This document shows positions 6,824-36,360 of a DNA stretch of 39,504 nucleotides, in pieces. Under the pieces are notes generated by a model, which worked only from the letters and a program-made list of their open reading frames with translations, did not search any database and was not told the DNA's origin. How positions within the stretch are numbered: position 1 is the first letter of the stretch; each line of letters opens with the position of its first letter. Where the stretch lies: the NCBI GenBank assembly GCA_945903545.1, contig CAMDOO010000026.1, positions 1 to 39,504 of the forward strand, written 5' to 3'. Origin of the DNA: Opitutus sp. GAS368. Its GTDB lineage: Bacteria > Verrucomicrobiota > Verrucomicrobiia > Opitutales > Opitutaceae. A program made the position numbers and the translations under genes.

Positions 6824-7006
6824 GGTAGGGTTGTCTCGACGAGCCCTTCGACTCCGCTCAGGGCCTTGAGCCTGTCGAAACGGGCGACCGCGATGATCGA
6901 TCCCAGCCGGCCCGTTCGACAAGCTCAGGGTCCCGAGCGAGGTCGAGGGAGTCGTCGACCCAGCCCCACCCAAAATCCCGGTCCGCCGGGACGGCGGACC
7001 CTACCC
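6824..7006. repeat. Composite repeat element filling a convergent gap
   Basis: The termini are GGTAGGG (6824-6830) and CCCTACC (6999-7005). Inside, arms CCTTGAGCCTGTCGAA and TTCGACAAGCTCAGGG form an inverted pair, a widespread environmental repeat motif. At the right end the minus-strand foot GTAG (CTAC 7001-7004) precedes the hairpin GGTCCGCCG/CGGCGGACC. It occupies the whole space between two convergent genes and supplies the TAG stop of the DUF3817 gene. Confidence 0.8.
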
Positions 7007-7306
7007 GCGATCCGTTTCCCGCAGCAGCCGGGCATCCGCCACAAACGGCCCGCAGGGCAGGAACGCCGCGACCAGGAGCCAGGCCGTGGTCCGGAGCGGC
7101 CAGCGCTGTTCGCGCTGCGCCAGGACCACCAGCACCACGTAGAGGATAAAGAGGGCCCCATGGGCCATCCCGACGACCCGCACCGCCTCGGGCTGGCCGG
7201 CGAGGTACTTCAAGGGCATGGCAATACCCAAGAGGACGAGGAACGACACCCCCTCGAGGAACCCCGCCACCCGGAGGCGCCCGACCGTGGACTTGAACAA
7301 AGACAT
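7001..7306 (-). CDS. DUF3817 family small integral membrane protein
   Basis: A 101-residue protein with three hydrophobic helices. The family motif is plain: RLRVAGFLEGVSFLVLLGIA, then MPLKYLAGQPEAVRVVGMAHG, then a long Leu/Val helix. Function is unknown for the family. The ATG at 7306 (MSLFKSTVGRL) is chosen because it matches the usual family length; the open frame runs further upstream to 7564 but would translate a REP pair. The stop codon TAG lies within the terminal GGTAGGG of the adjacent repeat, so the last residues (TDRG) may be set by the element. Confidence 0.82.
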   Translation of the reverse strand: MSLFKSTVGRLRVAGFLEGVSFLVLLGIAMPLKYLAGQPEAVRVVGMAHGALFILYVVLVVLAQREQRWPLRTTAWLLVAAFLPCGPFVADARLLRETDRG

Positions 7307-7397
7307 GGCCGGGAGAGAACTGATGTAGGCTGGCCGCGCAAGAACCGAGGCGTCCCGGTCGCGAGCATCCGCGCTGAGGCGCGGTCCTTCACCGATC

Positions 7398-7463
7398 CAC
7401 CGGCAGAGGTCTGCCGGTGCTACATCAGCGAGATCGACTGTAGCCGGGCAGACCCCTGCCCGG
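7398..7463. repeat. Divergent REP pair in the carB upstream region
   Basis: Two GTAG-foot hairpins stand back to back. On the minus strand GTAG (CTAC 7420-7423) precedes CACCGGCAGA/TCTGCCGGTG, a 10-bp stem at 7398-7419. On the plus strand GTAG 7440-7443 precedes CCGGGCAG-ACCC-CTGCCCGG at 7444-7463. The stems are related but not identical. They lie in the 269-bp gap between the DUF3817 and carB starts. Confidence 0.8.
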
Positions 7464-7477
7464 GGATTGGGGCCAAG

Positions 7478-7500
7478 GCATTTTCCCGCAGGGAAAATGC
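7478..7500. repeat. Perfect hairpin 75 bp before carB
   Basis: GCATTTTCCC-GCA-GGGAAAATGC is a 10-bp perfect stem with a 3-nt loop. No T-run follows, so it is not an ordinary intrinsic terminator. It could affect the carB leader, but no leader peptide or PyrR-type site is recognised. Confidence 0.6.
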
Positions 7501-7575
7501 CCCCAAATGCATTCCCGCCGCTTTCCCGCTTGCCGCGCGTTTTTCCACTCTCAACCTTCGTCAAAATCTACGTCC

Positions 7576-27440: not shown

Positions 27441-28310
27441 CTACCCTTTCAACGCTCCCGCCGCGATGCCCTTCACGATGTGGCGCTGGAGGAACAGATA
27501 AACGAGCAGGATCGGGATCGTCACCAGCACGATGCCGGCGAAGAGGCTGCCGTAATCGGAACGGTACTGCGCGGTGATCGAAAGATTCGCCAAACCGAGC
27601 GGAAGCGTGCGCGAGGCGCCGGTCGGATCGCCGCCCGTCAGCATGAACGCATAGAAATACTCCTTCCAGACGCCGATAAACTGGAAGATCGCCACCGTCA
27701 CCAGCCCGGGCCGGGCCAGCGGCAGCATCACGCGCCGGAACGCCGTCCACTCGGTGCACCCATCCATCATCGCCGCCTCGTGCAGCGAACGCGGCAGGGC
27801 GCGGAAAAAACCCGTGAGAATGAAGATCGCGAAGGGCAGGCCGTTCGCCGTGTAGACCAGGATCAGGCCGAGGCGGGTGTTGAGCAGCCCGGCCGCGCGG
27901 AGCTCAAAGAACAGCGGGATAATCGAGAGCTGCGCCGGGATCATCAGGCCCGCGAGAAACAACCCGTAAGCCATCCCGCCGCCCGGCAGCCGGAAGCGCG
28001 CCAGGGCATAGGCCGCCGGCGCGCCGAGCCCGAGGATCAGCAGCACCGCGGCCAGGGTGATCACCGCCGAATTCATGAAGTACCGGCCGAAGCCACCCTC
28101 TCGCCAGGCCTCCGTGTAGTTTTCCGGATGCAACTCGGAAAGCCCGGGCAGGGAAAAAGCATCGCGGAAGATCGCGGCGTCGGCCTTGAGCGACGAATAC
28201 GCGACCCAGAGCATCGGGAACACCACCCAGACGCCGTAGGCGACGAGCGCCGTGAAGATGAGGCCGCGGCCGAGTTTCGGGCTGCGGGTGTTTGGGAACG
28301 CGGAGGCCAC
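27441..28310 (-). CDS. Carbohydrate ABC transporter permease, MalG-like
   Basis: 289 residues, six transmembrane helices. The EAA loop that docks the ATPase is clear: HEAAMMDGCTEWTAFRRVML followed by PLARPGL (about residues 190-216). It matches the MalG/second-permease class of CUT1 sugar importers. It would pair with the MalF-like half of the fusion protein encoded upstream on the same strand. The GxxExxY gene lies between the two. No ATPase gene is present here, so a shared MsmK-type ATPase elsewhere is expected. Substrate unknown. Confidence 0.93.
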   Translation of the reverse strand: MASAFPNTRSPKLGRGLIFTALVAYGVWVVFPMLWVAYSSLKADAAIFRDAFSLPGLSELHPENYTEAWREGGFGRYFMNSAVITLAAVLLILGLGAPAAYALARFRLPGGGMAYGLFLAGLMIPAQLSIIPLFFELRAAGLLNTRLGLILVYTANGLPFAIFILTGFFRALPRSLHEAAMMDGCTEWTAFRRVMLPLARPGLVTVAIFQFIGVWKEYFYAFMLTGGDPTGASRTLPLGLANLSITAQYRSDYGSLFAGIVLVTIPILLVYLFLQRHIVKGIAAGALKG

Positions 28311-28336: not shown

Positions 28337-28771
28337 TTATCGGCGGGTGTTGATGACCCGGCGGATGCCTTCGCGCAGATGGGGAACGTGAAAATTGATC
28401 AACAGCCCAACCTGGCAGGACGATAGTCGGAGATAGGAGAGGAGTTGGGCCTCGTGCACGTCGCGCAATTGTTCGACGGCCTTCAATTCAACTACGACGG
28501 AGTTCTCAACGAGAAGATCGATCCGGTAGCCTTCCTCCAGTTTCAGGTCTCCATAAGTGATGGGGAGCTTGCGCTGGCGCTCCACCGCGAATCCGGCGTT
28601 GGCCAACTCGTAGGCGAGGCACGCCTCATAGGCCGACTCCAGCAGCCCTGGCCCAAGTGCCGTGTGCACCCGCATGGCTGCTCCAATGATCCGTTCCGTA
28701 ATGCGATTCAAAGGCTCGGGCCCTCCGAGCCCTCCCTTCTCCTCCACAACCTCAGTGTTCCCGTTTCTCAT
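28337..28771 (-). CDS. GxxExxY family protein
   Basis: 144 residues. The family signature is exact: NRITERIIGAAMRVHTALGP followed by GLLESAYEACLAYEL. The second half, YRIDLLVENSVVVELKAVEQ, has the D...E.K pattern of the PD-(D/E)XK nuclease fold. Function is unknown; the family is common in Verrucomicrobia and related phyla and is often found as a lone insert. Its ATG overlaps the TGA of the ABC fusion gene (ATGA), and malG starts 26 bp after its stop, so it sits inside the transporter operon. Confidence 0.9.
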   Translation of the reverse strand: MRNGNTEVVEEKGGLGGPEPLNRITERIIGAAMRVHTALGPGLLESAYEACLAYELANAGFAVERQRKLPITYGDLKLEEGYRIDLLVENSVVVELKAVEQLRDVHEAQLLSYLRLSSCQVGLLINFHVPHLREGIRRVINTRR

Positions 28772-31185
28772 GACTCGTTCCCCTCCCGCTTGAGTCCACG
28801 CAGCACCAGGGCGCTGCCAGCCATGACGAAAATAAAGAGCACCACGGCGATCGCCGTGGCGCGTCCGACCTGGAAGTCCTTGAACATCGAGGTGACCATC
28901 AGCGTGCCGAGCGTATGCACGGAGGTGCCGGGGTCCTGCGAGGTCAGCAGCCACACCATCTCAAAGGCGTTGAGGCCGCCGATGACGATGAAGACGGCCG
29001 CGACCAGCACGATCTCCCAGATCAGTGGCAGGGTGATGGCGAAGAACTGCCGCCACACGGGTGCGCCGTCCATCTCCGCCGCCTCGTAGAGCTGCTGGTC
29101 GATGCCCTCCATCGCGGCGAGGAAGAGGATGAGGTTAAAGCCGCAGGCCATCCAGATGTAGATCGGGATGAGCGCGCCGTAGAGATTCGCGGCCGAGAGC
29201 CAGGGAAACGCATCGAAGGACATCAGCCACTCATTGCCCAACAGTTTGCCGAGACCGGTGAGGCCGGCATTCACCAACCCGCCGCGCGGCTCGTAGGCAT
29301 TCAGCCAGAGCAGCGTGGCCGCGATGCCGCCGAGCAGGTTCGGAAAAAGGAAAACGGCCCGGAAAACCTTCGCCCCCCAGATGCCGCGATGGAGCAGGAA
29401 CGCGAAGAGCAGCGCGAGCGGCAGCACCACCACCGCGGGCACCAGCATCAGGTAGAGGTTGTTACGCAGCGCGAACCAGAAGCCGTCGTTTTCAAACAAC
29501 AGCCACTTGAAGTTGAACCAGCCGGCCCAGCTTTGCTCGCTGAGACCGTCCCAGCGGGTGAAGGCCCAGCCAAAGGCCACCAGGCCGGGCCCCAGCACCA
29601 GCAGCGCGTAGAGGAGAAAGGCGGGGCCGACGAAACCCAGGGCGTTGCCCTTCGGAAGGTGGGGACGGTAATCACCGTGTGCCCTCGATCCCGGCCCGCC
29701 GGAGACGGCGGGCCCTACCTTTTTTTTCCATGCCCGCCAGCAGGCCCAGGCGCCGAGCACAGCCAGTCCCGTGAGCAGGGAAATGCCGCCGGTCAGGTGC
29801 CGGTACTCGATGTGGTCGGGTTCCGCGGCACGACGGCGATCGAGCGCCGCGGCCGACTCCACCTCCTGGGCGAACTGCTCCGGAGTGCTGCGCCCGGTCA
29901 TCAGCGCGAGGCGATTGTCGGTCAGCGCCTGCCGGAGCGCCGGGGTTTGGAGCATGACCTGCGGCATGTTGAAGCCGTCCTTGGCCGCGGTGATCATTTC
30001 GACCGTGCGGCGCATCTGCGGCGAGTAGGCCGTGAGCGGCACGCCCCGCACGGCGACAGGAGCGTCGTTGCCGCGGACGAACGCTTCGGCCCGGCTGCGG
30101 GAGGTCATGAAGCGCAGGAAATCCACCGTCAGCCGCTCGCGCTCCGGGTCGCCCGTTGCAAAGAGGAAAAAGCAGTCCGCGCTCGATTGCACCGACGAGG
30201 CGTCGGCCACGCCGTCGGCGAAGACCGGGAAATTCATCACGCCCAGCTCAAAGCCGGCCGGGATCTTGCCCTTCATCTCCTGGATCATCCACGAGCCGGA
30301 GACGACCATCGCGGCTCGGCTCTCGAGGAAGCCGAGTTGCGCCGCCGTGTGCGTCGCCCCCTCCCAGCCCTTCAGCGTGTAGTTCTGGGTGATGCGCTGG
30401 AGCACGCCGGCCGCGCGCACATAGCGGGAATCGGTGCGGGCCCCGGGCGCCATCTCGTTGAGCGCGCGCCACCCGTCGCCCCCGGCGAGGTTGAAATAAG
30501 CGGAGCGCAGGAAGGCGTCGGGATAATTCTGGTAGATGCCGGTCAGGCTGACCGGCGCGATGCCTGTCGCCTTGATCTTCTCGCAGAGCGCGAAGAACTC
30601 TTCCCAGGTGCGCGGCTCCGACCAGCCGTGCTCGCGGAACATCGCCTGGTTGTAGAAGACGGTCCAGCAGGCGTAGCCGAGCGGCACGCCGTAGACCCCG
30701 CCGTCAATCCGCCATGAATTCAGTGCCCCGGGCAGGAAGCTGTCGCCCCAGCGGGCGTCGCCCTCCCAGTTCGGGCCGTCGAGGTACGTCGTGAGGTCGC
30801 GGATCTTGCCCGCGCGGGCCAGCGCCGGGATGAGCAGCTCGCGCGGAAAAACGGCGTCGGGCAGATCGCCGGTCACGACCCGGATGCGCACGCGGTCGGT
30901 CACGCGCGGATCGCCGTAGAGGTTAACCTTCACCCCGGGACGCTCCGCCTCGAACAGCCGCGCGGTCTCCTCGTAGAACGAGAGCCCGTAGCCGCCGTAG
31001 AACACCGGGATGTCGAGCTCGACCGCGCGGAGGGGGGTGAGGAGGAGGAAAAAGAGCAGGAGGTAGGGGCGTGTGTCCCCACACGCCCTTGAGGGACAGC
31101 TGAGGTCAGCCGCCCCTAGCTTTTTAGGCCTTTGCAGAGCGCAAAGTGCGTGCCGCCAACTCATGACTCCAGAATCCACGGCCAT
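28768..31185 (-). CDS. Sugar-binding protein fused to MalF-like ABC permease
   Basis: 805 residues in one open frame. The signal helix is at 41-54 (YLLLFFLLLTPLRA). A CUT1-type extracellular solute-binding domain occupies about 55-450 (FYEETARLFEAERPGVKVNL; GVYGVPLGYACWTVFYNQAM; VVSGSWMIQEMKG). A helix at 466-483 crosses the membrane, followed by a 30-residue linker and a MalF-like permease (516-805) with EAA loop YEAAEMDGAPVWRQFFAITL. Binding protein and permease are normally separate. Linker residues 489-510 (VGPAVSGGPGSRAHGDYRPH) are encoded by a REP element, and the region before the signal helix (about 24-41) by a REP pair. Starts at 31185 and 31164 are possible; the latter overlaps the RAYT stop as ATGA. 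Confidence 0.88.
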   Translation of the reverse strand: MAVDSGVMSWRHALCALQRPKKLGAADLSCPSRACGDTRPYLLLFFLLLTPLRAVELDIPVFYGGYGLSFYEETARLFEAERPGVKVNLYGDPRVTDRVRIRVVTGDLPDAVFPRELLIPALARAGKIRDLTTYLDGPNWEGDARWGDSFLPGALNSWRIDGGVYGVPLGYACWTVFYNQAMFREHGWSEPRTWEEFFALCEKIKATGIAPVSLTGIYQNYPDAFLRSAYFNLAGGDGWRALNEMAPGARTDSRYVRAAGVLQRITQNYTLKGWEGATHTAAQLGFLESRAAMVVSGSWMIQEMKGKIPAGFELGVMNFPVFADGVADASSVQSSADCFFLFATGDPERERLTVDFLRFMTSRSRAEAFVRGNDAPVAVRGVPLTAYSPQMRRTVEMITAAKDGFNMPQVMLQTPALRQALTDNRLALMTGRSTPEQFAQEVESAAALDRRRAAEPDHIEYRHLTGGISLLTGLAVLGAWACWRAWKKKVGPAVSGGPGSRAHGDYRPHLPKGNALGFVGPAFLLYALLVLGPGLVAFGWAFTRWDGLSEQSWAGWFNFKWLLFENDGFWFALRNNLYLMLVPAVVVLPLALLFAFLLHRGIWGAKVFRAVFLFPNLLGGIAATLLWLNAYEPRGGLVNAGLTGLGKLLGNEWLMSFDAFPWLSAANLYGALIPIYIWMACGFNLILFLAAMEGIDQQLYEAAEMDGAPVWRQFFAITLPLIWEIVLVAAVFIVIGGLNAFEMVWLLTSQDPGTSVHTLGTLMVTSMFKDFQVGRATAIAVVLFIFVMAGSALVLRGLKREGNES
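29658..29719 (-). repeat. REP element translated in frame inside the ABC fusion gene
   Basis: On the minus strand, GGTAGG at the start gives foot GTAG (CTAC 29715-29718), then hairpin GGCCCGCCG-TCTC-CGGCGGGCC (29693-29714), a small stem ACGGT-GATT-ACCGT, and CCCCACC as the inverted end. It is 62 bp. The closest relative is at 6971-7005, whose stem is GGTCCGCCG/CGGCGGACC: the C-G to T-A change is compensated on both arms. Confidence 0.9.
31061..31125. repeat. REP pair over the signal-peptide region of the ABC fusion gene
   Basis: Foot GTAG 31063-31066 precedes the perfect hairpin GGGCGTGTG-TCCC-CACACGCCC (31067-31088). The opposite unit, ending GCCGCCCCTAGC, has a damaged foot (CTAG). The pair lies between the RAYT stop and the hydrophobic core of the fusion protein's signal sequence. 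Confidence 0.85.
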
Positions 31186-31709
31186 TCTTCTGCACCTGCA
31201 ACCAATCCTTTTCTCACGGGATTCTGGCGGATGTAGGCGGCTTTGAGCCTCAGCTCTTCCTCGTTGCGCGGGCGGTGCTCAAACCAATCGCGCTGCCACT
31301 CCACCCCAAGCACCCGGGCGGTGTACCGCTTCCAATCCTTCAGAACTTTGGCCATTTCCTCGTTCCCCGGAACCGCCAGCAAGGCGTGCAGGCGGTCGGG
31401 CATGAGGAGGAAGAGGCGCACGTGCCACCGGCCCTGAGCATGGTAGTGACCGGCTGAAGCAAGCAGCTGTTCAGCCATCGCAGGTGTCGTCAATTGATCA
31501 GAGTTTCTCTGGCGACAGCAGATCGTGATGAAAAACGTGCTGCCGACGGACACCCATGGAGGTATGCCGTGCGGCAATCGCTTGCGGGCATCAAACCTCG
31601 TTTTGAGGTGCGGGGCGTGTGTTCCCGCGCAACCTTCCGTTGAGATTGGGCCGAGGCCCTGAACCCAGGGCGGCTGAGGACAGCCGCCCCTACCTTTTTT
31701 ATCATCCAT
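31161..31709 (-). CDS. REP-associated tyrosine transposase (RAYT, IS200/IS605-like Y1 family)
   Basis: 182 residues as an open frame; the homologous part starts at about residue 44 (RLPHGIPPWVSVGSTFFITI). Motifs: WHVRLFLLMPDRLHALLAVP where the HUH motif should be (normally MP[ND]HxH), WKRYTARVLGVEWQRDWFEH, and AAYIRQNPVRKGLV with probable catalytic Tyr159. The first His of HUH is Arg106 (CGC; one transition from CAC), which should weaken metal binding. Residues 6-33 are read from a REP element, so the true start is unclear (ATG 31709, or TTG at the RLPHG Leu). It lacks any insertion-sequence ends but is bracketed by REP pairs. The stop overlaps a start of the ABC fusion gene. Confidence 0.85.
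   Translation of the reverse strand: MDDKKGRGGCPQPPWVQGLGPISTEGCAGTHAPHLKTRFDARKRLPHGIPPWVSVGSTFFITICCRQRNSDQLTTPAMAEQLLASAGHYHAQGRWHVRLFLLMPDRLHALLAVPGNEEMAKVLKDWKRYTARVLGVEWQRDWFEHRPRNEEELRLKAAYIRQNPVRKGLVAGAEEWPWILES
31607..31700. repeat. REP pair at the 5' end of the RAYT gene
   Basis: On the minus strand the foot GTAG (CTAC 31690-31693) precedes the perfect hairpin GGGCGGCTG-TCCT-CAGCCGCCC (31668-31689). The distal unit (GCGGGGCGTGTGTTCCCGCG) is a diverged copy of the GGGCGTGTG hairpin with its foot lost. A T-run (plus strand) follows the right end. Confidence 0.85.
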
Positions 31710-34410: not shown

Positions 34411-34472
34411 TTGGTAGGGGCATGTGTCCCCACCTGCCCTTGCGCGGGCGGCTGAGACAGCCGCCCCTACCT
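34411..34472. repeat. Inward-facing REP pair after dnaN
   Basis: GTAG 34414-34417 precedes GGGCATGTG-TCCC-CACCTGCCC (stem with mismatches). The opposite unit has CTAC 34467-34470 and the perfect minus-strand stem GGGCGGCTG-TCT-CAGCCGCCC (34446-34466). Its layout matches the pairs at 31061 and 36279. Confidence 0.85.
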
Positions 34473-34481
34473 CCCCATCCC

Positions 34482-36198: not shown

Positions 36199-36278
36199 GG
36201 CGTCAGAGACAAGGTTGAGGTGGTTTGCCCCCATCCGGCAACGCAAAGGTAGGGGCCGGTGTTCGGGATCGATCGCAA

Positions 36279-36360
36279 GGTAGGGGCGTGTGTCCCACAC
36301 GCCCTGTTTCAGCCCGTGAACCAATCAGGGCGCCTGGGGACAGGCGCCCCTACCCTTTTT
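36279..36360. repeat. Inward-facing REP pair between the unknown gene and moaA
   Basis: GTAG 36280-36283 precedes GGGCGTGTG-TCC-CACACGCCC (perfect, 36284-36304). The opposite foot CTAC 36350-36353 precedes, on the minus strand, GGGCGCCTG-TCCC-CAGGCGCCC (perfect, 36328-36349). A further lone GGTAGGGG lies at 36248. A T-run follows on the plus strand. Confidence 0.88.

Follow-up and report, generated by a model that had tools for sequence, protein, structure and literature searches.

The transporter fusion gene and its locus

The window, by which we mean the whole stretch of 39,504 nucleotides from Opitutus sp. GAS368 analysed here, carries a sugar-type transporter gene in which a solute-binding protein is fused to an ABC importer permease, with a palindromic REP element read in frame in the linker between the two halves. 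The features to which we refer below are the following:

6980-7005, minus strand: REP of the linker subfamily, with a 3-nt loop and one compensated pair (C-G to T-A)
27441-28310, minus strand: second ABC permease gene (BPD_transp_1), downstream of the fusion gene
28768-31185, minus strand: fusion ORF of 805 aa, solute-binding protein (SBP_bac_1, residues 70-362) plus ABC importer permease (BPD_transp_1, residues 588-788)
29658-29686, minus strand: possible decayed second REP arm, codons 500-510; alternatively native linker
29693-29719, minus strand: REP with a GGTAGGG foot, a perfect 9-bp stem and a 4-nt loop; codons 489-498 (KVGPAVSGGP)
31062-31120, minus strand: REPIN translated in frame as fusion residues 22-42, just ahead of the hydrophobic LLLFFLLL
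31161-31709, minus strand: RAYT (REP-associated tyrosine transposase) ORF, NF047646 at 85.3 bits (cut-off 80)
31607-31694, minus strand: REP and a degenerate partner in inverted orientation, both at the start (5') of the RAYT ORF and free of stops in its frame

The fusion frame runs through its 805 codons without an internal stop or frameshift, and the position of the second permease gene suggests that it likely encodes the transporter partner of the fusion protein. The fusion genes of the window's own genome (G000, 3.08 Mb) and of a same-genus relative (G001) show about 85% DNA identity, the latter being the only same-genus orthologue that we found (L002, identical to L042). Between the two, dN/dS was 0.063 for the binding domain, 0.045 for the permease and 0.315 for the linker, the last value being based on 26 codons only.

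In an AlphaFold2 model built from 16 sequences (mean pLDDT 69), residues 491-511 fall below a pLDDT of 50 and lie between two helices, 464-490 and 512-544, of which the former is presumed to be the membrane anchor and the latter is modelled as the first permease helix. This agrees with the earlier note, made from the letters of this DNA, which had placed the element between the first permease helix and the transmembrane anchor of the binding domain. As evidence of linker disorder the model is weak and supportive only, since its confidence is moderate and six other segments, four of them in the permease half, are also below 50. The linker loop starts with several Lys and Arg residues. Given the positive-inside rule and the N-in topology usual for MalF-type permeases, the loop should be cytoplasmic.

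A RAYT cassette at the gene start

Directly upstream of the transporter gene lies the RAYT frame, flanked by REPs on both sides and scoring under the PF01797 cut-off (18.2 vs. 23). At this position, the same-genus relative lacks a RAYT and instead has some 100 nt with a likely native ATG, and no RAYT match was found in the G001 genome. The REPIN at 31062-31120 was matched in our sample of the window's genome. The first 60 codons of the fusion frame contain an ATG, GTG or TTG at three places only (31185, 31179 and 31164), all of them upstream of the REPIN, and CTG codons are found at 31137 and 31059, the latter just past it. At 31164, the ATG and the RAYT stop overlap in the sequence ATGA. Provided that the gene is still expressed, the signal peptide of its product probably starts within DNA derived from the transposase; moreover, expression could be impaired, since the start region has been rebuilt by the RAYT cassette.

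It is tempting to suppose that a RAYT-REPIN cassette captured the transporter gene as a whole, leaving a start codon (31164), a signal-peptide n-region and a portion of the linker that all derive from repeats, and that the linker is a site where mobile repeats recurrently turn into protein. We offer this as a tentative suggestion that may well prove wrong; if true, a transposase gene would be translationally coupled to a secreted transporter partly made of its REPs. It is less probable still, and in our opinion unlikely, that the gene is a decaying pseudogene, in which the REP merely marks relaxed constraint. Such decay would fit a native start that has been replaced by the cassette, with the in-frame ATG, GTG and TTG among the first 60 codons confined to the DNA upstream of the REPIN, and is opposed by the intact 805 codons and by the low dN/dS; neither of these is decisive, because the cassette could be too recent for visible decay.

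Where five relatives have His, the RAYT has Arg in place of the first His of MPDHLHA, which we take to be its HUH motif. Therefore, the adjoining RAYT may be inactive, and another copy may have mobilised the REP. RAYT-type ORFs gave six matches in G000, one of which covers only the REP-derived query residues 3-36. The latter (G000:C74:8455-8553) lies inside an open frame of 430 aa and is possibly another translated REP.

The linker REP and its relatives in the genome

The element at 29693-29719 belongs to the GTAG class of REPs, described in the accessible text of Di Nocera, De Gregorio and Rocco (2013, PMC3733652) by a GTAG foot, a stem of 5-13 bp and the formation of dimers; here, an unpaired GTAG stands at the end of the stem. 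The GTAG foot and the perfect 9-bp stem noticed earlier inside the 805-residue frame, uninterrupted by stops, are thus present. The 62-nt stretch claimed at the time as one complete element is open throughout and encodes residues 489-510, KVGPAVSGGPGSRAHGDYRPHL. When 29658-29720 (63 nt) was folded, only 1 of 200 dinucleotide shuffles was as good or better (z = -3.24).

A first subfamily pattern was dropped as too loose, its control matching about equally often. The pattern of the 27-nt arm retained here has 16 matches in G000, two of them within the window, and three in G001, with none for the reversed-pattern control in either genome. We also scored the arm against 42 REPs taken from a 400-kb sample of G000; none of 500 simple letter shuffles reached or came near its score, and it agrees with one sampled genomic REP at 26 of 27 positions. 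It should be said that this sample (20 stretches of 20 kb out of 3084 kb) is non-random, being partly chosen for REP copies, so that it contains 9 of the 16 known subfamily copies, and that the RsmB-like case presented below was known beforehand. In the same non-random 400 kb, GTAG REPs of many stem types numbered 56, against 6 in the reversed-sequence control, and a stricter scan of it gave 23 against 1. The matches of the arm, together with the absence of comparable shuffles, bear out the earlier view of a dispersed element and not a chance coding palindrome.

The extent of this element is another matter. The outer foot of the far arm, GGTGGGG, has one mismatch to GGTAGGG, and its score was reached by 41 of 500 simple shuffles; for two control stretches in the flanks, the corresponding numbers were 22 and 333 of 500, so the far arm is no better than ordinary flank. 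Consequently, the complete 62-bp element of the earlier note is upheld for the 27-nt arm, while its far arm is indistinguishable from chance, and instead of some 21 translated residues we count ten as securely REP-encoded and about twenty as possible. By eye, GDYRPHL, encoded by the far arm, is similar to the Y-F-x-P-L seen in other linkers and may be native. Other copies of the subfamily (e.g., L052, L057 and L058) look head-to-head dimeric, also by eye.

The copy at 6980-7005, which had been called intergenic, does share the stem, with its one compensated pair, but it is partly genic: a DUF3817 gene (7001-7564, minus strand) ends on the TAG (7001-7003) contained in the GTAG of this copy, which fits the account, in the accessible text of PMC3733652, of REP ends giving TAG stops. 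Several of the 16 copies in G000 fall in long open frames (e.g., those over L058 and L062) which we judged spurious from composition alone. In all, 15 long open frames of the 400-kb sample run across a REP; three were compared with NCBIfam, so the number of coding cases is a minimum. In-frame REPs were found there in MnmA (L129; 382 bits, cut-off 284) and HrpA (L131; 1144.7 bits, cut-off 722.75).

A further copy of the linker's subfamily (G000:C1:98083-98109) is read in frame within an RsmB-like rRNA methyltransferase gene (L123, G000:C1:96993-98426), the name resting on a best NCBIfam score of 168.5, under the model cut-off of 319. Between shared anchor residues, this gene measures 213 nt in G000 and 150 nt in each of G001 and G002, an excess of exactly 63 nt or 21 codons, and the REP residues appear in 0 of the 29 other rows of the alignment, in which L116-L120 are paralogue-like and poorly aligned. 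An empty-site proof of insertion exists for the RsmB-like gene, with the same REP subfamily, and not for the transporter linker; the congeners thereby supply the states before and after. A second stretch of L123, SQISNLKS...AFNFQPSTFNSS, resembles translated simple repeats.

Orthologous linkers and the capture of repeats

We searched for orthologues of the fusion gene in 57 genomes, including the window's own (30 loci), and in a collection of named genomes (15 loci). Leaving out L018-L030, which have the permease part only, gave 32 loci, with L001 being the window itself; L016, whose contig ends within the linker, and three duplicates (L042, L040 and L043, identical to L002, L010 and L011) were then removed. 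The resulting set contained 28 distinct sequences, the window included, with linkers of 18 to 54 codons.

The earlier note had proposed that a relative lacking exactly the roughly 21 REP codons would prove insertion. No such empty site occurs at the transporter linker among the 28 distinct orthologues. The window's linker length of 26 codons recurs in 6 of the 27 others, including L003 and L033, two of its four nearest orthologues. The linkers of the 26 orthologues beyond the window and G001 were judged not reliably alignable, and L003, the closest orthologue outside the genus by identity, is equal in length to the window; for these reasons, the linker alone is no proof of insertion.

The G001 orthologue aligns without gaps over the REP arm, with 5 of 10 residues identical, and its site has no stem (fold z = +0.51). 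This comes close to the situation named earlier as speaking against insertion, a linker shared at the protein level with the DNA stem not conserved, but the G001 sister arm is still REP-like in score, being reached by 4 of 500 simple shuffles (22 of 500 for a flank control); the right-arm side of G001 does no better than chance (229 of 500). Because the sister arm remains REP-like and the REP is multicopy in the window's genome, the simplest reading of these sequences is that G001 carries a decayed ancestral REP, so that the insertion would predate the split of the two lineages, staying intact in the window and decaying in G001. The G001 linker also contains an extra 30-nt insert that looked like a repeat and was ruled out as such, being single-copy in G001 at up to 3 mismatches and absent from G000; looser relatives of it number five in G001 and four in G000.

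Eight orthologues have linkers of at least 36 codons; seven of these, all except L013, were examined for repeats, and five hold a repeat dispersed in their own genome. In each case, the control was the same pattern read backwards in the same genome, and each control gave 0 matches. L031 has a linker of 53 codons (26 in L003, to which it is most closely related by identity), and this linker holds a different GTAG REPIN with an imperfect stem (63 matches in its own genome at up to 3 mismatches). That of L017 (G007) holds a 30-nt inverted repeat (92 matches, two arms counted singly). In L006 the repeat is a CCTTCGCCAAGC palindrome, for which a degenerate pattern matched 31 times, and in L009 it is a short palindrome that matched 20 times, in 14 cases with 3 mismatches. 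L044 has a 7-nt tandem repeat, whose 27 matches include several that overlap. The palindrome in the long linker of L008 was rejected as a dispersed repeat, being single-copy in G003. No repeat hit was obtained for the linkers of L003, L004, L007, L010, L011, L012 and L014 in 100-200 kb per genome, which is weak evidence, since these samples are small and the window's sample is enriched in REPs. A scan of the orthologue ORFs other than the window's for GTAGG with a perfect stem gave no hits and also missed the imperfect-stem REP of L031, so this negative carries no weight. In L017, a gap between matches points to another insert in the binding domain as well.

As a control within genes, we matched nine ORFs against sampled parts of the genomes that carry them. 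The linker received 10 hits in the window, 11 in L017 and 0 in the seven others, while hits elsewhere in the ORF numbered 7, 7 and 0-3, respectively. Among the four shown of the window's 7 non-linker hits, two are in the N-terminal REPIN; three of the four shown for L017 are the same 22-23-nt stretch, which may be another repeat.

It seems very improbable to us that the palindrome is ordinary coding sequence of a native linker that resembles a REP by chance. The G001 linker, homologous codon by codon and stemless, and the length shared with the six other orthologues would suit this idea, which can hardly be reconciled with an arm matching one genomic REP at all but one position and approached by no shuffle, with the 16 subfamily matches against none in the control, or with a 78-nt linker that takes 10 hits where the remainder of the 2415-nt ORF takes 7, even though the latter counts come from a REP-enriched sample. 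Just as improbable is a REP retained as a nucleic-acid element, an mRNA or DNA hairpin between the gene halves with coding as a side effect: REPs have been proposed as RNA elements (PMC3733652, accessible text) and the stem is perfect in the window, but it is gone in G001 while dN/dS stays low, and five other orthologues carry other repeats and seven none in small samples.

The explanation we favour, with a probability of roughly 0.88, is a tolerated in-frame insertion of a RAYT-mobilised REP, which now serves as a neutral spacer in a flexible linker. Before the lineages of the window species and its same-genus relative diverged, a GTAG-class REP would have been mobilised in trans by a RAYT transposase and would have entered, in frame, the short loop between the first permease helix and the helix that follows the binding domain. 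Since the element is GC-rich, its GTAG is a stop in only one forward frame and the loop probably lacks structure, adding nucleotides in a multiple of three may have been harmless, and the insertion would have drifted to fixation. The encoded residues, with no sign of a specific function, would act as a spacer; we read them as neutral because the linker is weakly predicted to be disordered and the dN/dS of the gene is low. Overall, the REP stands in frame, belongs to a dispersed family, lies in a conserved gene with low dN/dS and has a subfamily member with a 63-nt empty site in another gene. Its insertion at the linker, mobilisation by a RAYT, the cytoplasmic position and neutrality of the loop and the production of the protein are what we infer from these observations.

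Translated intragenic REPs are already known in Opitutaceae, and nothing in the accessible text of PMC3733652 is overturned here. According to that text, GTAG REPs lie inside ORFs for known proteins and encode 20-30 residues; Opitutus terrae, a member of the family Opitutaceae, has the most intragenic GTAG REPs, the targets including both uvrA genes and RNA helicases; and flexible linkers or loops are proposed as the basis of tolerance. The window REP shares its GTAG foot, stem and translation within an ORF with these cases, so the earlier note was right to see a repeat making protein sequence directly, though this is not a first case. What we add is a linker that has taken up unrelated repeats several times, an exact empty site seen in congeners for another gene of the genome, and a RAYT cassette placed at a gene start. 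The sole recurrence near one site in the accessible text of PMC3733652 concerns recB of two Xanthomonas species, in contrast to the unrelated repeat families and several lineages seen here, and the exact empty site in congeners, given here for the RsmB-like gene, likewise goes beyond that text. In the literature searched, including the accessible text of PMC3733652, we found no earlier description of a single linker that repeatedly captured unrelated repeats. Such cases show mobile non-coding palindromes becoming protein sequence, and where this is tolerated, with one orthologous linker offering a natural series of unrelated-repeat captures.

In-frame palindromes in protein genes are also known from the Rickettsia palindromic elements (RPEs), for which insertion hotspots were raised as a possibility (PMC10969869, PMC3767692, in the parts accessible). 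RPEs measure about 100-150 bp and occur in Rickettsia and Wolbachia; the window element, of 27-62 nt and with its relatives in Opitutae/Opitutaceae records, was rejected as one of them. RPE-4 and RPE-6 are classed, in the accessible text of PMC3733652, as CGTC REPs, a class apparently without a dedicated transposase. The arrangement at 31062-31709 is like the inverted REP pairs of REPIN-RAYT systems (PMC3116915, PMC2817692) and the RAYT gene with REPs on both sides of PMC3733652, as far as the accessible parts of these sources go. Unlike those systems, the linker REP has one certain arm, and the adjoining RAYT has Arg for the conserved His. Two more REP pairs, of the GGTAGGGGCG type, lie in the window at 34417-34479 and 36271-36359.
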